Source: Paenibacillus sp. HW567 | GTDB taxonomy: Bacteria; Bacillota; Bacilli; Paenibacillales; Paenibacillaceae | Direction of reading: 5' to 3' | Length of the DNA stretch: 64,000 nucleotides | NCBI RefSeq assembly: GCF_000374185.1 | Contig: NZ_KB910518.1 | Span: 594,667 to 658,666 of the forward strand | Shown here: one piece after another, positions 24,853 to 46,807 of the stretch | Numbering within the stretch: position 1 is the first letter of the stretch | Layout: every line of letters starts with the position of its first letter | Translations under genes and position numbers: made by a program | The notes under the pieces: model-generated | Told to the model about the DNA's origin: nothing | The model's database searches: none | What the model saw: only the letters and a program-made list of their open reading frames with translations

Positions 24853-24945
24853 TAGGGGAAGTATGATTTTTTACATGTGGTAAGGGTTATATGGAGTTGG
24901 AAGGAAGCTACTTTGGACTATAATCGCCTGAGGGGCAAGGGGCCA

Positions 24946-25126
24946 GTAACAACGGCAGAAATGCCGTTGCTGGAGCCGAACGGGCGGATTTGCTCAGTAA
25001 CAACAGCAGAATTGCCGTTGTTGGAGCAGCGCGGGCAGATTTGTCGGTAACAACGGCAGAAATGCTGTTGTTGGAGCAGCATGGGTGGATATGCTCAGTA
25101 ACAACGGCAGAAATACCGTTGTTTGG
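24946..25126 (+). repeat. Array 1 of the 51-bp palindromic repeat (4 units)
   Basis: Units start at 24946, 24997, 25047 and 25098 (period 50-51). Each has a palindrome of the type AACAACGGCA-GAA-ATGCCGTTGTT followed by GGAGC and a semi-conserved 25-bp stretch containing GGGCGGATTTGCTCA. The fourth unit is partial. The 24853-25286 gap holds nothing else recognised apart from the aldo/keto reductase ribosome site. Confidence 0.85.
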
Positions 25127-28742: not shown

Positions 28743-28794
28743 AAATAACGTTGCGTTAATACATATGTAATAAAATCTTTCCATTTGCACATTT

Positions 28795-28868
28795 GTCCCG
28801 GTAGCTCAGCTGGATAGAGCATGCGCCTTCTAAGCGCACGGTCGGGGGTTCGAATCCCTTCCGGGACG
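28795..28868 (+). tRNA. tRNA-Arg (anticodon UCU), copy 1
   Basis: The 74-nt cloverleaf has acceptor GTCCCGG/CCGGGAC, a D-arm with GCTCAGCTGGATAGAGC, anticodon stem GCGCC/GGCGC-type with loop CTTCTAA, and a T-arm with GGTTCGAATCC. The discriminator base is G and no CCA is encoded. It reads AGA (and AGG by wobble). An identical gene lies on the other strand at 44230-44303. Confidence 0.97.
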
Positions 28869-28870
28869 TC

Positions 28871-28904: not shown

Positions 28905-29020
28905 CGTCAGGAGGAAGAGAACGCCTTGGGTTCGTTGGAGCATAGTCTTCGTTAGCGCCCGCTTCGCAATCAGCCCGAAGAGGCACAAGAAGTTAAGTGA
29001 GGTGGATTTTCCCCACTTCA
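28905..29020 (+). repeat. Single copy of the tRNA-flanking 133-bp unit
   Basis: GAGAACGCCTTGGGTTCGTT, GGAGCATAG, CTTCGTTAGCG and CGCTTCGCAATCAGCCCG match, in order, the unit repeated three times next to the second tRNA-Arg. It leads into CCCCACTTCACCCCTCCTCG, which is shared with the other locus, and then into the 51-bp repeats. Confidence 0.75.
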
Positions 29021-29029
29021 CCCCTCCTC

Positions 29030-29172
29030 GCTCCAACAACGGCAGTTCTGCCGTTGTTTCAGATCGAATCACCCAATCGCGCTCCAACAACGGCAGTTCC
29101 GCCGTTATTTCAGATCGAATCACCCCTCCTCGCTCCAACAACGGCAGTTCCGCCGTTGTTTCAGATCGAATA
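29030..29172 (-). repeat. Array 2 of the 51-bp palindromic repeat (3 units)
   Basis: Units begin at 29030, 29081 and 29132 (period 51) in the opposite orientation to array 1. Each reads GCTCCAACAACGGCAGTTC(T/C)GCCGTT followed by (G/A)TTTCAGATCGAAT. They lie between the tRNA-linked unit and the end of argS. Confidence 0.88.
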
Positions 29173-29255: not shown

Positions 29256-31127
29256 CTACATCCGCTCCGGCTTAGGCAGGCCAAGCACATCAAGAACCTC
29301 GCCTAAGGTGGCTTGGAAGCGGAGGGTGAGCCAGAGACGGAAACGTATGGCGGCTTCCTCCCCTTTGAGAATCGGGCAGGCTGAATAGAAATTGTTGAAC
29401 AGCGAAGCCAGCGCGTGCGCGTAATTGCAGATCGTATTAGGCGTCAGCTCGATGCTCGCCGTATACAAGATGTCCTGCCAGGCACTAAGATGCCGCAGCA
29501 GGGCATGCTCTGCTTTGTCTAGCTGCGGAGGGAACAGGGGAAGTGATCCCGTTCCCTCCACAGCTCTGCTGCTCTCCGCTTTGCTGAGCACACTGCCTGC
29601 ACGGGCGTAGGTGTAGAGCAGGTAGACTCCGGTATTGCCGGATATTTCTGTGGCCTGCTTGAAATCAAACACGATCTCCGTGCCCAGATTGAAGCGCAGG
29701 AGATAATAACGGATTGCGGCGGTGGCGATGAGTCGGCTGGGGAGTCCGCTTTTGTCCGGGCGGGTGGCTTCGATGGTGTTCTCCATGAGCTGGACCAGAT
29801 CCGTCACCTTGACGCCGATGCCCTGGCGGCCGGACATGGCGTATGAGCTTTTGCCGTCCAAGGTGTCAATGCCAAGCTCAGCGGCGGAAGCCGGACTTAG
29901 CGAAACCACGCCGTAGCTTACATGATGCAGCTTCTCTGCCTGCGCGGTGTACCCGAGCACCTCCAAGGCCTGCTTCACCATCGCCTGCGGGTACTCCTGT
30001 CTATAGTCGATGACATTGATGACCATGTCCGCTTGTCCAAAAGGCAGTTGTGCTCCAGTCAAGCCAGTGGTCCACAACCCCTCACTGAACTCGTTATAGG
30101 CGAAATCCTTATCCAGCAAGCCGAATTTCCAGAGATGATAGGCGATGTCCTTGGCGGTATAGGTCAAAATCCCGTTCGAACGCACCAGCACCTTATCCTT
30201 CTGCTGCTCCTCCGAATCCAGCTCTGCTCCTTCCACAGCCGATTGCTTCAGAATCCAGCAGCCTGCGAGCTTCCCCCAGGTCTCCTGAACAAAGACATCT
30301 GTCTGCTTGAGCAAGGTAAAAGCGGAGGACCAGAAGCCTTCTTTCAGAATATTGCTCTCCCACACGAGCAGGTCGTAGCCGATGCCGAAGCTCTTCAGTT
30401 CCTCCACATGCTCTCTTACAATCCTTTCAGCAACCAGGCTGCCCAGCCAGGCGGTATTGCCGTGGCCTTCCTCCAGTGCGTGGAGAATCTCGGTGCGTTT
30501 GTGTACCGTCTCCGGCTGCTGCGCATATTCCTTGTTGATGGCGGCGTAAAGATCCCAGCAGTAATCCCCGAAACGGACATACTCTCCCGATAGCGGCACC
30601 TGAAGCAGACCTACCACCGTATCCGCCAGTTGATTGCCCAGGTCGTCCACATAGTTGTGGACTTCCACGTTATATCCTGTTTTCCGCAAAATCCTGACTA
30701 GTGCATCTCCAATACAGGAGTTTCTCAGATGCCCGATATGCAAGGCTTTATTCGGATTTACGCTAGTATGCTCTATGATGACCTTATCCCCGCCAGCCGG
30801 GGGAAGTTCAAAGGAATGGCCCGCCCAGGCCTGCCAGTTGATGTACATATTAATGAACCCCGGAGCGGCAATCTCAATCCGCTGTAGCACGCCGCTGGCA
30901 GCACCCATTTGCTGAAGCTCACCTGTAATCAGCTCTGCGATAATCATAGGCGCTTTGCGCAGGGTTTTGGCCAATTGCATGGCAATGCTGCTTGAATAAT
31001 CACCGAAATCGGCATTGGCGGGCTGCTCCAGAGCGATTGTTACCTGAGCTGCACCGGCAGCGCCAAGGCTGCTGAATACGTTATGCACACTTTGTTCCAA
31101 ATGCTGTTTAATGAGTTGACTTAACAA
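29256..31127 (-). CDS. argS: Arginyl-tRNA synthetase
   Basis: This 623-residue class I synthetase has 'NPNKALHIGHLRNSCIGDALVRIL' with the HIGH motif. The ArgRS-specific 'VRSNGILTYTAKDIAYHLWKFG' lies in the middle. A DALR-type anticodon-binding domain occupies the last 130 residues ('YTYARAGSVLSKAE', 'NFYSACPILKGEEAAIRFRL'). The canonical KMSKS is replaced by 'GKSSYAMSGRQGIGVKV', a variation usual in ArgRS. The TTG start at 31127 is chosen because GGAGGGGG lies 5 nt upstream; a TTG 18 nt earlier would overlap that site. Expression is probably controlled by the Arg T-box upstream. Confidence 0.9.
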   Translation of the reverse strand: MLSQLIKQHLEQSVHNVFSSLGAAGAAQVTIALEQPANADFGDYSSSIAMQLAKTLRKAPMIIAELITGELQQMGAASGVLQRIEIAAPGFINMYINWQAWAGHSFELPPAGGDKVIIEHTSVNPNKALHIGHLRNSCIGDALVRILRKTGYNVEVHNYVDDLGNQLADTVVGLLQVPLSGEYVRFGDYCWDLYAAINKEYAQQPETVHKRTEILHALEEGHGNTAWLGSLVAERIVREHVEELKSFGIGYDLLVWESNILKEGFWSSAFTLLKQTDVFVQETWGKLAGCWILKQSAVEGAELDSEEQQKDKVLVRSNGILTYTAKDIAYHLWKFGLLDKDFAYNEFSEGLWTTGLTGAQLPFGQADMVINVIDYRQEYPQAMVKQALEVLGYTAQAEKLHHVSYGVVSLSPASAAELGIDTLDGKSSYAMSGRQGIGVKVTDLVQLMENTIEATRPDKSGLPSRLIATAAIRYYLLRFNLGTEIVFDFKQATEISGNTGVYLLYTYARAGSVLSKAESSRAVEGTGSLPLFPPQLDKAEHALLRHLSAWQDILYTASIELTPNTICNYAHALASLFNNFYSACPILKGEEAAIRFRLWLTLRFQATLGEVLDVLGLPKPERM

Positions 31128-31153
31128 AAGATCCCCCTCCTTCAAGATTGCCG

Positions 31154-42297: not shown

Positions 42298-43169
42298 ATT
42301 TCACACGTACACGCCAAAGTGCTCGCTCGCAGCGCAATAATAAAATAGCCACAATCGCCTTTTATACACTCGGCGCACTTGTTATGCTGCTGATATTCTG
42401 GCTGCTCTATTCCATTCTGAGCAAAGGTCTGCCTTCACTCAGACCGGATTTCCTGATCAAGCAGCCGGAAGAAATTGATGCCGGAGGCGGGATTGGACCG
42501 GTGCTCTTCAACTCCTTCTATATTCTGTTCATCTCGCTCTTGATCTCCATTCCTATCGGGATTGGGGCGGGCATCTATATGGCAGAATATGCGCCGGATA
42601 ACCGTTTTACCGCTACACTGCGCATCTGTGTGGAGTCGCTGTCTTCCGTCCCTTCCATTGTGTTCGGGCTGCTGGGTCTTGCGATCTTCGCTGAATATTT
42701 CGATATCGGCCTGACGATTCTGGGCGGGGGCGTCAGCCTGGCGCTGCTCAACCTGCCGATGCTGGCCCGGGTCACAGAGGAAGCCATCCGCGCCGTTCCC
42801 GGTGACATCCGCGAAGCCGGGTATGCGCTTGGCATGACCAAGTTCCATGTCATCCGCAAGGTTGTGCTGCCGGTAGCCATGCCGGCTATCGTAACAGGCG
42901 TCTGCCTCGTGGCCGGACGCGCCTTCGGGGAGTCGGCGGTTATCATCCTGACAGCAGGGCTCAGCACCTCCGGAGAAATGTGGGACTTCAACCTGTTCTC
43001 GCCGGGTGAGACGCTGGCTGTCCATCTCTGGTACGTCCAATCCGAGGCTATTGTCGAGGATGCGCGGCAGATCGCCGACAGATCGGCAGCCGTTCTTGTC
43101 TTTGTCGTGCTGCTGATCAATTTCATCTTCCGCTTCCCGCTGTGGCTCGGACGCCGCCGGGGACGCTGA
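42294..43169 (+). CDS. pstA: Phosphate ABC transporter permease PstA
   Basis: The 291-residue six-span permease carries 'SLSSVPSIVFGLLGLAIFAEY' and the EAA motif 'REAGYALGMTKFHVIRKVVLPVAMPAIVTG'. It is the second half of the PstCA channel. It is followed by a terminator and not by pstB or phoU, so the ATPase must come from another locus. Confidence 0.93.
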   Translation: MNFTRTRQSARSQRNNKIATIAFYTLGALVMLLIFWLLYSILSKGLPSLRPDFLIKQPEEIDAGGGIGPVLFNSFYILFISLLISIPIGIGAGIYMAEYAPDNRFTATLRICVESLSSVPSIVFGLLGLAIFAEYFDIGLTILGGGVSLALLNLPMLARVTEEAIRAVPGDIREAGYALGMTKFHVIRKVVLPVAMPAIVTGVCLVAGRAFGESAVIILTAGLSTSGEMWDFNLFSPGETLAVHLWYVQSEAIVEDARQIADRSAAVLVFVVLLINFIFRFPLWLGRRRGR

Positions 43170-43202
43170 ACGACCGGGCGAATATACAAGTTAGGCATAA
43201 CG

Positions 43203-43249
43203 CAGGCCGCCAGCCGTGGACCATTCACGGTTGACAGCCTGTTTTTTTT
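43203..43249 (+). terminator. Terminator of the pst operon
   Basis: CAGGC/GCCTG plus inner AGCCGTG/CACGGTT stems are followed by TTTTTTTT. It confirms that the transcript ends before any pstB. Confidence 0.85.
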
Positions 43250-43280
43250 GGTGGGGAGGGCGAGAATTCAGGTTGGGGTG

Positions 43281-43392
43281 CAACTGTATGAAACTGTATG
43301 AGACTGTGTGCCGACTCTAGGCAGATTCTATACAGATTCTATACAGACTCAAGGCAAACTCTAGGTAGGCTCTAGAGTCACTCTAGGCCCAC
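43281..43392 (+). repeat. 11-bp phased repeat array rich in CTAG
   Basis: From 43314 the sequence steps in exact 11-bp units: ACTCTAGGCAG, ATTCTATACAG, ATTCTATACAG, ACTCAAGGCAA, ACTCTAGGTAG, GCTCTAGAGTC, ACTCTAGGCCC (ending 43390). It is preceded at 43281 by ACTGTATGA-type 10-bp repeats. The remaining 43393-43689 gap shows no gene or further clear signal. Confidence 0.75.
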
Positions 43393-43689
43393 TTTGGCTT
43401 AGACGACGGCACCAATCTAAAGGTCTCACCAATCTAATGCATTTTCTACAATTGATTTCGACGAATCCCAGGCTTTTTTCGGTTCTGTTGTACTTTGTAC
43501 AGTCAAATATCGGTTACAGTCATTTGGAGGCAGGTTTAGGATTTTTCATTGCATAAAGTGCAGTAGAACGAGAGTAGAACGTTAATTTTATTAATTCTAT
43601 TGTAAAAAATACAATCAAAGAAGTACGCCTGCCAGGTTATCGTTTACGAAATGAACAAACGAAAGGAAGACCGTAAGATAGGTTGGTTC

Positions 43690-43842
43690 GATCTGAAATA
43701 ATAGCAGAAATGCCGCTATTGGAGCGAAGAGTGGATGGTTTGATCAGAAATAACGGCAAAAATGTTGTTGTTGAACCAAGATAGGCTTGTCCGACCAGAA
43801 ATAACGGTAGAAATGCCGTTGTTGGAGTGAGGAGGGGTAAAG
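43690..43842 (+). repeat. Array 3 of the 51-bp palindromic repeat (3 units)
   Basis: Units at 43690, 43742 and 43793 (52 and 51 bp apart) read GAT(C)TGAAATAACGGCAGAAAT followed by GCCGTTGTTGGAGCGAGGAG-like sequence, with more divergence than arrays 1 and 2. The third unit runs into GGGGTAAAGTGGGG, which is the flank shared with the tRNA-linked repeats at 29.0 kb. Confidence 0.82.
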
Positions 43843-43884
43843 TGGGGATCAGTTACCTGGTAAATAGGGTGAACGCTCTCGAAG

Positions 43885-44229
43885 CAGATGCTCCAACGCC
43901 CCCAGGGGGTTCTCATCCCCCGGACGCACAAACAGCCCTCCCGAAGGAAGGCTGCTCTGTGACGTTTCGGAAGGGATACAGCCCGAACGTGCTGATTGCG
44001 AAGCGTGTGGTAACGAAGCCTATGCTCCAACGAACCCAAGGGGTTCTCATCCCCAGACGCACAAACAGCCTTCCCGAAGGAAGGCTGCTCTGTGACGTCC
44101 CGGAAGGGATACAGCCCGAACGGGCTGATTGCGAAGCGTGTGCTAACGAAGCCTATGCTTCAACGAACCTAAGGGGTTCTCATCCCCCGGACGCACAAAC
44201 AGCCTTCCCGAAGGAAGGCTGTTCTGTGA
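43885..44229 (-). repeat. Tandem 133-134 bp units: tRNA-Arg 3' end + terminator + spacer
   Basis: GACGCACAAACAGCC recurs at 43923, 44056 and 44190. Each unit holds the tRNA terminator hairpin and a degenerate copy of the tRNA 3' end (on the + strand CGTTTCGGAAGGGAT at 43963 and CGTCCCGGAAGGGAT at 44096; the true tRNA end is at 44230). GGGCTGATTGCGAAGCGTG and CCTATGCTCCAACGAAC follow. The third unit abuts the intact tRNA gene. Confidence 0.88.
44194..44227 (-). terminator. tRNA-Arg terminator hairpin (copy 2)
   Basis: On the minus strand GAACAGCCTTCC-TTCG-GGAAGGCTGTTTG directly follows the tRNA. It is the same as the hairpin at 28871-28904 apart from one base. Confidence 0.7.
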
Positions 44230-44303
44230 CGTCCCGGAAGGGATTCGAACCCCCGACCGTGCGCTTAGAAGGCGCATGCTCTATCCAGCTGAGCTACCGG
44301 GAC
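44230..44303 (-). tRNA. tRNA-Arg (anticodon UCU), copy 2
   Basis: This 74-nt gene is identical to the one at 28795-28868 and lies in the opposite orientation. Anticodon loop CTTCTAA, discriminator G, no encoded CCA. Confidence 0.97.
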
Positions 44304-44334
44304 ATAAGATAAGACTGAAAAGCAAGCAAAAAAT

Positions 44335-44363
44335 ATGTTATCATATATGTTTGTTTTTTTCAA
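44335..44363 (-). promoter_or_regulatory. Promoter of tRNA-Arg (copy 2)
   Basis: On the minus strand TTGAAA (44358-44363), 17 bp, TAACAT (44335-44340), about 30 nt before the tRNA. Confidence 0.6.
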
Positions 44364-44372
44364 CTTGTTTTT

Positions 44373-44400
44373 TTGAAACTGCGCAGGGATATGCTATAAT
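44373..44400 (+). promoter_or_regulatory. Promoter of the ysoA-like/tig transcript
   Basis: TTGAAA (44373-44378), 16 bp, TATAAT (44395-44400); divergent from the tRNA promoter, with about 40 nt to the first gene. Confidence 0.7.
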
Positions 44401-44439
44401 CTACAATTGATTAAGGTTCGGTGAAAAGGAGGTGCCCTC

Positions 44440-45369
44440 ATTAATCATTCGAATTCCCCCGCCAAAGAGAATATCGTGCTGTTTCCGAAAACGCTGGATT
44501 ACTATCAGATCCAGTTAACGGTAATGCTGGAGAGTGAACGCTACGGGGAAGCGATGGAACTGCTGCGTTTTTTGCTGCAATGCCAGGGACAGGAAGAGCG
44601 GCACTACCAGGAATGGCAGTCGCTTTTAGAGTGGCTGGAGTCGGCATTTCCCTATGCTGCCCATGACGGAGATGCAGAAGCTGAAGCTCAAGGCGGTGAA
44701 CAGGATCTCAAGGAAGAAGACATGGCCCGGATTCTGGCCAAATCCAAGCTCGAAGAGGATTCGGAATATCAGGGCAAGCTATTGCAGCGGGTAATGAACG
44801 AACCTTTGTCCGAGTCGACCATTCTGGCGCTGGAGCAGCTTTCGTATCTGGAGGGCGGCCATATCGACGAATCACTCACTGGCTGGCTGCAGCAGGCTGC
44901 GGTTCATCCGCTGCTGCAATTCCGCACGCTGCAGACTCTCCGCCGCCGCGGGGCACAGGGGATTATCGGGCTAGCCCGCGGGGCCGAAACGGCATACGTT
45001 GAGATCGAAACAGTGCCGTTGACCAATGAGGAGTTCCCGCCGCAGGTCAGCCAGGTCCTGGAACGGGTGGCTGAACAGGCAGAGGTGCACGAACCTGCGC
45101 TGTACTATTTTGCCCAGGAGCTTTGGGGGCAGTTCATAATGTCGATCTACGGCTCCGATGAATACCGCAAGCTGCTGGACGGAGAAGACGCTCGGCTCGA
45201 CATTTGGGCGGGTGCGCTGCATCAGATGGTGTCCGAGAGTCTGAACGGGAACCGGCAGGAGGAGGAGACCCGTACAATGTACGGGATAACAGGCAGCATG
45301 CGCTTTCAATTCGAGGGGGCATACCGCTCTCTCAAGGGATTTGTAAAGAGTTCTCTACTTGATAAATAG
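44440..45369 (+). CDS. YsoA-like TPR-type protein upstream of trigger factor
   Basis: The gene lies where Bacillus has ysoA, directly before tig. The 297-309-residue product is helical, with a TPR-like 'YYQIQLTVMLESERYGEAMELLRFLLQ' opening and paired helices throughout. AAAAGGAGGTG (44423-44433) is an excellent ribosome site. The only possible start at proper spacing is an ATT at 44440, in frame and giving 'MNHSNSPAKENIVLFPK'. The first standard start is a GTG at 44476, 42 nt from the site. The ATT start is therefore proposed. The function is unknown, perhaps linked to protein folding by context. Confidence 0.7.
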   Translation: MNHSNSPAKENIVLFPKTLDYYQIQLTVMLESERYGEAMELLRFLLQCQGQEERHYQEWQSLLEWLESAFPYAAHDGDAEAEAQGGEQDLKEEDMARILAKSKLEEDSEYQGKLLQRVMNEPLSESTILALEQLSYLEGGHIDESLTGWLQQAAVHPLLQFRTLQTLRRRGAQGIIGLARGAETAYVEIETVPLTNEEFPPQVSQVLERVAEQAEVHEPALYYFAQELWGQFIMSIYGSDEYRKLLDGEDARLDIWAGALHQMVSESLNGNRQEEETRTMYGITGSMRFQFEGAYRSLKGFVKSSLLDK

Positions 45370-45466
45370 AGTAATGTTGTATATAATATAATGGTTATTC
45401 TGTGCGTGAATTGTGTGATTATTAGTAAGTGAACATGTAACCTATTTTTGGAGGGAAAAGTATATT

Positions 45467-46807
45467 ATGAAAGCAACCTGGGAAAAAATAGAGAAGAACC
45501 TTGGAGTTCTTGAAGTCGAAGTAGGAGCAGAACGCGTAGCTGCAGCACTCGACAAAGCTTTTAATAAAGTAGTTAAGAAAGCTAACGTGCCTGGTTTCCG
45601 TAAAGGCAAAGTGCCACGGCCAATTTTTGAATCCCGTTTTGGTGTGGAAAGCCTGTACCAGGACGCCATTGATATTCTTCTTCCTGAAGTTTACAGTGAA
45701 GCGGTTGAACAAACCGATATCTTCCCTGTAGACCGTCCGGAAGTGGACATCGAGCAATTCGCCAAAGGCCAAGCGTTCATCTTCAAAGCAAAGATCACCG
45801 TTAAGCCTGAAGTGACTTTGGGTCAGTACAAAGGCCTTGAAGTACCGGTACAAAAGGCTGAAGTTACTGAAGAAGAACTCGGTGCTGAACTGAAACGTCT
45901 GCAGGAGCGTCATGCTGAGCTTGTTGTCGTTGAAGATGAAGCTGCAGTAAGCGGCGATATCGCAATAATCGACTTTGACGGATCTGTGGATGGCGTGCCA
46001 TTCGAAGGCGGAAAGGCTGAACGTCATTCCCTGGAGCTGGGAAGCAATTCCTTCATTCCTGGATTCGAAGATCAAGTAGTAGGCATGTCCACTGGAGATT
46101 TCAAGGATGTTGAAGTTACTTTCCCTGAAACTTACCATGCGGAGCACCTTGCCGGTAAACCTGCTGTATTCAAAGTAAAGCTGCATGAAATCAAACGCAA
46201 ACAGCTTCCTGCTCTGGATGATGAATTTGCTAAGGATGTAAGCGAATTTGACACGCTGGAAGAATACAAGGCTGACCTGAAGGCACAACTGGAATCCCGC
46301 AAGCAGGATGAGCTCAAAGGCGCCCGCGAAACTGCAGTGGTAGACGCAGCGGCAGCTAATGCAGAGGTTGAAATTCCTGAAGCGATGATCAGCAGTGAAG
46401 TTCAGAACATGGTTCGCGATTTCGACAACCGTCTTCGTCAGCAAGGCATGAACATGGACATGTTCCTCAGCTTCTCCGGCCAAACCCGTGAAGACCTTGA
46501 GAGCCAGATGAAAGGCGATGCCGAGAAGCGCGTCCGCAACAACCTGGTGCTTGAAGTAATTGCGAAGGAAGAGAAGATTGAAGTTTCCGAAGAAGAAGTG
46601 AATCAGGAGCTTGCTTCTATGGCTGAATCCTTCAAGCGTTCCGCTGAAGAGATCCGCAGCATTCTGGCGGCTAATGGTTCCCTGAACAGCTTGAACGATG
46701 AGATTTCTTTGCGCAAGACCATTGATTTCCTCGTAGAGAACAGCGTTGAGATTGAAGCTCCAGCAGTAACTGAAGAAGCTGCACAAGTAGAAGCGAGCGC
46801 TGAGTAA
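45467..46807 (+). CDS. tig: Trigger factor (ribosome-associated chaperone, PPIase)
   Basis: The 446-residue chaperone has the N-terminal ribosome-binding domain with the signature 'GFRKGKVPRPIFESRFG' (about residues 43-59). An FKBP-like PPIase domain follows ('DIAIIDFDGSVDGVPFEGGKAE', 'FIPGFEDQVVGM'), then a helical C-terminal chaperone domain. It binds nascent chains at the exit tunnel. It heads the folding/proteolysis block tig-clpP-clpX-lon. A terminator follows, so clpP has its own promoter. Confidence 0.96.
   Translation: MKATWEKIEKNLGVLEVEVGAERVAAALDKAFNKVVKKANVPGFRKGKVPRPIFESRFGVESLYQDAIDILLPEVYSEAVEQTDIFPVDRPEVDIEQFAKGQAFIFKAKITVKPEVTLGQYKGLEVPVQKAEVTEEELGAELKRLQERHAELVVVEDEAAVSGDIAIIDFDGSVDGVPFEGGKAERHSLELGSNSFIPGFEDQVVGMSTGDFKDVEVTFPETYHAEHLAGKPAVFKVKLHEIKRKQLPALDDEFAKDVSEFDTLEEYKADLKAQLESRKQDELKGARETAVVDAAAANAEVEIPEAMISSEVQNMVRDFDNRLRQQGMNMDMFLSFSGQTREDLESQMKGDAEKRVRNNLVLEVIAKEEKIEVSEEEVNQELASMAESFKRSAEEIRSILAANGSLNSLNDEISLRKTIDFLVENSVEIEAPAVTEEAAQVEASAE

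Follow-up and report, generated by a model that had tools for sequence, protein, structure and literature searches.

What does a row of repeated tRNA 3' ends behind a tRNA gene represent? We analysed a window of 64,000 nucleotides from Paenibacillus sp. HW567, in which a tRNA-Arg(TCT) gene on the minus strand (44228-44304, ARAGORN; Rfam tRNA 44230-44303, 66.1 bits) is followed by such a row. A sequence-only reading had described it as a tandem triplication of the tRNA end with its terminator. The repeats were called empty, and were explained as nested attachment-site scars or as a source of tRNA-derived fragments.

The triplication itself is confirmed. Copies of the repeat start at 43875, 44008 and 44142, with spacing of 133 and 134 bp. 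Tandem Repeats Finder reports the array at 43880-44244 (period 133, 92% matches), and its score of 625 is the top of the six rows for the window. The 15 bases of the tRNA's own 3' end, ATCCCTTCCGGGACG, form tail copy 1 (44230-44244, minus strand), the only copy joined to a complete tRNA, as claimed. Tail copy 2 (44096-44110, minus strand) is identical to it in 15/15 positions and tail copy 3 (43963-43977, minus strand) in 13/15. Along the tRNA direction, each unit runs from a tail copy to a terminator-like hairpin, then to a core, and then to the next tail copy. The array consists of two full units and a truncated one.

The terminators proposed for each unit are present as hairpins in all three. 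On the minus strand, they lie at 44200-44223 (unit 1, repeat arms and fold, with a weak T run), 44064-44087 (unit 2, repeat arms) and 43931-43954 (unit 3, repeat arms). A terminator scan called that of unit 3 only, at 43951-43937. So, for units 1 and 2 the word terminator describes a resemblance.

The units are not empty. Between the hairpin and the next tail copy, each full unit holds an 83-nt folded core, a third component that fills much of the repeat. The core of unit 1 (44106-44188, minus strand) was recognized by its fold and by a 96-bit match to a model of which unit 1 is itself a part. It ends in five bases that it shares with tail copy 2, ATCCC. The core of unit 2 (43973-44055, minus strand) was assigned by sequence and model, and holds GGGATGAGAACCC-N3-GGGTTCG at 44031-44053. 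Units 1 and 2 are 93-94% identical. Unit 3 has a core truncated at about 43874-43921 (minus strand, by sequence), without the tail and the internal hairpin P4; its model match (43845-43921, 40.1 bits) extends into unrelated sequence. A 132-nt stretch of hairpin, core and tail folds far better than its shuffles (z -4.98, 0/200 as good).

Other features surround the array. An 11-bp short tandem repeat, GACTCTAGGCA-like, adjoins it at 43313-43375. Three arrays of ~51-bp units with a hairpin like AACGGCAGAAATGCCGTT occur in the window, at 24944-25123, 29018-29171 and 43675-43834. Two of them stand beside the window's pair of tRNA-Arg sites; another like them lies behind a tRNA-Ser site (L005). Other genome-specific repeats stand directly behind the arrays at loci L010, L017 and L036 of related genomes, as if intergenic repeats collected behind cassette arrays. 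A 297-aa protein encoded upstream of trigger factor (44476-45369, plus strand) gave no Pfam match at E 1e-5.

The second tRNA-Arg(TCT) of the window, found by tRNA prediction at 28794-28870 (plus strand), is followed by a single degenerate unit at 28910-28977 (plus strand; repeat comparison and model), in which no tail copy was seen. An arginyl-tRNA synthetase gene (Pfam; 29256-31145, minus strand) is convergent with this tRNA site. In some relatives, a sequence like the gene for this synthetase was noticed by eye behind the array (L009, L034).

The core is built from a series of elements. The first element behind the tRNA is a strand complementary to the T-arm, GGGAUUCGAACCC, altered in most copies to GGGAUGAGAACCC. 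It is followed by a short loop and by a copy of the T-arm 5' strand (GGGUUCG). Next comes a conserved domain of ~50 nt with the hairpin P4, and finally the copy of the tRNA 3' end, from AUCCC on. By its base complementarity, the first strand can pair with both halves of the T-arm. Thus, the T-arm and tail sequence of the host tRNA would close the fold, as helices P1 and P2. GUUGGAGCAU resembles a D-arm, and a cloverleaf mimic of tRNA was considered.

We examined the fold in two alignments. In an unfitted alignment of 48 units, P4 shows changes on both sides at 5/6 pairs, and the whole structure has 20 both-side-changed cells against 5.5 in shuffles. The second alignment, fitted to the model structure, contains the 103 distinct rows of 105 units from many hosts. 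It gives 197 such cells against 85 +/- 6 in shuffles, and P4 swaps UA/GC/AU/CG and CG/GC. The number of pairs with a both-side change was nine in this fitted alignment, with no excess over shuffles (8.8). P1 is paired in 92-95% of cells. P2 and P3 display few compensatory changes; they are mostly conserved in sequence, so their support is weaker. An alternative P3 (columns 38-42 with 47-51) fits about equally, with 90.0% vs 89.2% of cells. RNAalifold without guidance recovered P4 alone (6 pairs). G-U pairs are frequent at two positions (75/103 and 29/101 rows). As for an extension of P1 by the acceptor strand, the own tails of Arg(TCT) matches pair no better than permuted ones (25/300 as low), and for the other hosts 43/300 permutations were as low; in the wide set of loci given below, however, own tails do pair better.

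The core is not particular to this site or to this tRNA. One unit used as a DNA query matched in 92/100 genomes of the genus, and 6/100 had no match or one below the threshold. The fetched genus loci are arrays behind tRNA-Arg(TCT), with a variable number of units. R1, a covariance model from 48 core units, has 10 matches in the window genome (E 0.01), behind Arg, Ser, Asp and Glu tRNAs. There, the core is also found behind tRNA-Ser(GCT) and tRNA-Asp, where the copies end in their own Ser or Asp tRNA tail, and as a truncated copy behind tRNA-Glu. In the order of the window genome, taken as Paenibacillales, R1 matched in 147/296 sampled genomes and 15/48 genera; about half of the sample had no match or fell below the threshold. 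In the class, 24/299 genomes had matches, 23 of these 24 in the family of the window genome. Cassettes also stand behind Ser and Arg tRNAs in two genomes of the same phylum outside the class (G971, G853). A third match outside the class (G657, E 5e-4) has no tRNA within 2 kb and is probably due to chance. In the open-access literature we found nothing on such RtT-like units in Firmicutes or on the tail rule given below, which is no proof of novelty.

To describe the hosts we used 107 model matches from 60 fetched loci (114 minus the 7 weakest), and 76/107 were counted as first units. Nearly all of the matches (101/107) lie behind a tRNA on the same strand, and this tRNA is always Arg, Asp, Glu or Ser. 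The hosts are Arg(TCT) (29), Asp (19), Glu (19), Arg(ACG) (11), Ser(GCT) (9), Ser(GGA) (8), Ser(TGA) (5) and Ser(CGA) (1). The remaining six matches, in two loci, have no same-strand tRNA. One array of this kind, in G017 (L084, 717-2550), consists of five core copies and one weak match in ~350-bp units interleaved with another hairpin repeat, and no tRNA was found nearby.

The tail of each cassette follows its host. Among the first units, 60/76 agree with their own tRNA in at least 75% of the 16 nt after ATCYC. Conversely, 0/4278 comparisons with tRNAs for other amino acids reach 75%, and 0/10,000 permutations did as well as the real assignment. The other 16/76 fall below 75%, some by small indels and others by truncation or divergence. 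A recognisable tail copy is that of the upstream tRNA, and never that of a tRNA for another amino acid. The T-arm copy behaves likewise. Behind Arg(ACG), whose T-arm has AGTTCG, 10/11 copies carry AGTTCG; behind the other hosts it is GGTTCG or, chiefly behind Arg(TCT), a diverged form. With such host-specific strands, the cassette tracks its host in two places, the 5' strand of the T-arm and the 3' strand of the T-stem together with the tail. The complementary strand tracks the host tRNA more loosely.

The choice of hosts is also related to the T-arm. The window genome has 84 tRNA genes (Rfam), and 20/84 have the T-arm GRGTTCGAATCYC. A cassette is present at 9/20 of these vs 0/64 of the others (p 4.6e-7), as assigned by eye from an 85-row table in which one Cys tRNA gene is listed twice and the element flag also marks tRNAs whose next tRNA owns the element. 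Among the nine, one cassette is truncated and one is degenerate. A flagged cassette at a Cys tRNA (L111) proved to be a chance match.

Alleles with and without a cassette can be compared at the orthologous Asn-Ser(GCT) tRNA locus, a different site from the window tRNA-Arg(TCT). We parsed 25/30 fetched relatives; 7 are empty and 18 have a cassette, with a second tail recognised in 15/18. In 6/7 empty sites, the sequence after the tRNA corresponds to what follows the last tail in a filled relative (scores 32-40), against scores of 1.6-4.1 for what follows the first tail. The seventh (G027) favours neither, with 13.5 vs 12.9. The distance from the end of the first tail to the next ATCCC is 96-100 nt in 16/18 filled loci. 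The filled allele then differs from the empty one by a cassette of 96-100 nt and ~15-20 nt of duplicated tRNA end. These alleles would fit insertion and precise loss by tail recombination alike.

Within single genomes, a distant core pair, U37-A70 or C37-G70, is uniform in 11/11 genomes with at least two hosts, despite the differing host tails. For this count, each host of a genome contributes a single row, and the row must read U-A or C-G; of the 107 rows, 7 are unreadable and 5 are mixed (two U-G, three C-A), one of the two hosts in G300 (one of the 11) is unknown, and the 11 genomes are related, so that they are not a tally of independent events. The uniformity suggests a spread or conversion between tRNA genes after the lineages split, or a shared partner that keeps the copies alike.

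Considering these results, we think it probable that the array is a tandem set of cassettes of the RtT type, whose fold is closed by the host T-arm and tail, and which spread between tRNA genes and multiply by tail recombination. Each cassette carries at its 3' end the copied T-arm and tail sequence, which would pair with the complementary 5' strand and close the fold, and the variable domain would sit where the T-loop would continue. The cassette may move, or be copied, between tRNA genes, duplicating ~15-20 bp of the tRNA end. Tandem units could then arise by unequal recombination between identical tails. Presumably, the cassette is transcribed with the tRNA, and the enzymes of tRNA processing may recognise the tRNA-like end and release the RNA. 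The role might be that of a small RNA coupled to tRNA synthesis or supply, as proposed for RtT; this is a guess by analogy. The suggestion of tRNA-derived fragments survives in part: the array has the look of an RNA gene expressed together with the tRNA, but its predicted product is folded and RtT-like, not a simple tRNA tail.

The main rival is a selfish, non-autonomous mobile element without a role for the cell, whose fold serves its own movement; it might act as single-stranded DNA in folded form, or offer an integrase a site at the inverted repeat of the T-arm. The strict choice of T-arm type would suit such an element, and so would the duplicated tRNA end with empty alleles, the single core state per genome with nevertheless host-specific ends, and the orphan array L084. 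On the other hand, the sense orientation behind a tRNA in 101/107 matches and the persistence across the order speak against it. The G-U pairs counted above suit RNA better than folded DNA, and PMC4986893 reports an RNA product for the E. coli analogue. We regard the selfish element as possible, but on balance doubtful.

Simple slippage or unequal crossing-over without function is very unlikely as a full account. The sequence-only reading had named slippage expansion without insertions, together with a lack of transcripts, as the result that would overturn it. The identity between units 1 and 2 and the unit number, which does vary between genomes, make it plausible that recombination multiplies the units, and a 175-bp change of repeat number in rtT is listed for Salmonella in PMC2658671. 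However, the same core stands behind eight tRNA species with different tails, for which slippage cannot account, and it leaves the compensatory changes unexplained as well. We therefore retain it only as the origin of the tandem copies, within the cassette reading.

Least probable, and disfavoured, are nested attachment-site scars of excised prophages or islands, lost through recombination: the tails do start in the T-loop and extend past the tRNA end, as an attachment core at a tRNA usually does, and their duplication with empty alleles was seen, though at the tRNA-Ser(GCT) locus instead of the window array, but the units share one structured core, no integrase was found among the 18 proteins around the two window sites (8 + 10; Pfam, E 1e-5), and like cassettes occur at many tRNAs in many phyla. 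What remains of the scar proposal is that the tail copies mark an insertion-like event, by the flank match at the six empty Ser(GCT) sites; the units are not mixed scars, and their core is the same genus- and order-wide.

We also looked for the motif across bacteria. The pattern GGGATGAGAACCC-N(0-20)-GGGTTCGA, with a chance expectation of 2.5 in the collection under uniform base use, was found in at least 118 loci. The matches listed (143 in 118 loci) include Bacteroidota, Verrucomicrobiota, Pseudomonadota, Chlamydiae, Chlorobiota, Lentisphaeria, Kiritimatiellae and Gracilibacteria, and each of these eight taxa contributes, among them, loci that reach at least 80% in the tail test. Of the same listed matches, 87 lie within 130 nt behind a same-strand tRNA and 114 within 450 nt; as background, 0.9% of all positions in these loci would qualify. 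Their first units carry their own tRNA tail at 85% or more in 58/71 cases, and 0/2370 foreign-tail comparisons among the matches listed reach this value; an earlier tail analysis took 80 of the 118 loci, and these final counts take all 118. The hosts of the 87 tRNA-proximal matches listed are Ser (60), Glu (7), Lys (5), Gln (3), Gly (3), Met (3), His (2), Arg (2), Val (1) and Asp (1). In 40 loci of this set, pairing of the 5' flank is better with the tail of the same cassette than with permuted tails (0/500).

RtT has so far comprised one tRNA operon of E. coli and its gammaproteobacterial relatives. Tentatively, and at somewhat less than an even chance, RtT may belong to a class of tRNA-parasitic RNA cassettes that extends across bacteria, whose copies would borrow the T-arm and acceptor end of the host, be matured by the tRNA machinery and spread to tRNAs with a like T-arm. 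If the rule of motif and host tail holds for many hosts and many phyla, a class of tRNA-linked structured RNA is largely unannotated in bacteria, and the role of RtT becomes testable by comparing carriers with empty alleles. Repeated tRNA ends, usually taken for traces of attachment sites, would then in some cases belong to an RNA gene.

Among known systems, the 3' external transcribed spacers of tRNAs act as sponges, for example 3'ETS-leuZ of E. coli. The cassettes are similar to this type in that the RNA would be a by-product of tRNA transcription; to our knowledge, those spacers have neither a conserved structured cassette nor a tail copy. Bacillaceae-1 RNA (RF01690) is likewise a structured RNA inside tRNA clusters, and one of its matches shares a cluster with these cassettes in genome G356 (L118). 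It is, however, a separate family with its own model.

Judged by the arrangement of their sequence elements, the cassettes come closest, among known RNAs, to RtT of E. coli tyrT (RF00391), from the rttR array of the tyrT/tyrV operon. The tyrV array has the order tail, spacer, GGGGAAGGATGAGAAGC...GGTTCGA...GTAATCC-tail, and megablast recovers part of it in 4655/5426 E. coli genomes. RtT of E. coli is reported to be a stable RNA that is released when the tRNA is processed and that affects the stringent response (as cited in PMC4986893), and RtT has been placed near Asn and Lys tRNAs in a Pasteurellaceae species (PMC4986893). PMC2965389 links an enterobacterial RtT-like sequence to BIME repeats acting as attenuators. 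A term search of PMC2864571 returned no mention of RtT, and one of PMC11109978 had no match either.

R1 and R2, both without E. coli sequence, gave ranks 1-4 to the four RtT units of E. coli when run on 2 kb. In 49,901 bases on both strands, R2 placed them at ranks 1, 2, 3 and 5 (E 0.013-0.1 each); these are weak matches, the four units repeat one another, and an unrelated match ranks fourth. Conversely, the Rfam model RF00391 finds all four E. coli units, while the window units do not reach its gathering threshold. It gave no match in window positions 43000-45500 at E up to 10, none in L001, L005, L008 and L118 at E up to 0.5, and none in L037, L038, L042 and L084 at the gathering score. On 18 chosen loci of the wide scan, two match: an Enterobacter locus with two units, and a Verrucomicrobia locus at 45.6 vs the cut-off of 45.

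The two systems differ in several respects. In the window cassettes, the domain after GGTTCG is different in sequence and length from that of RtT, the hosts are Arg, Ser, Asp and Glu tRNAs instead of Tyr, and in the Arg(TCT) array a terminator-like hairpin lies between the tRNA and the core. A tandem GA motif is reported for RtT in PMC7657543, and GAUGAGAA opposite UUCGA could form it. The base after UUCG is A in E. coli and U in the window cassettes, so in the latter this pair would be at best half formed. As in RtT, tandem units lie on the same strand directly behind a tRNA gene and end in a copy of the 3' end of that tRNA (the last window unit is truncated). In both, GGATGAGAA is followed by GGTTCG, these common strands form the closing helices in the predicted fold, and the tail of the tRNA makes the closing helix.
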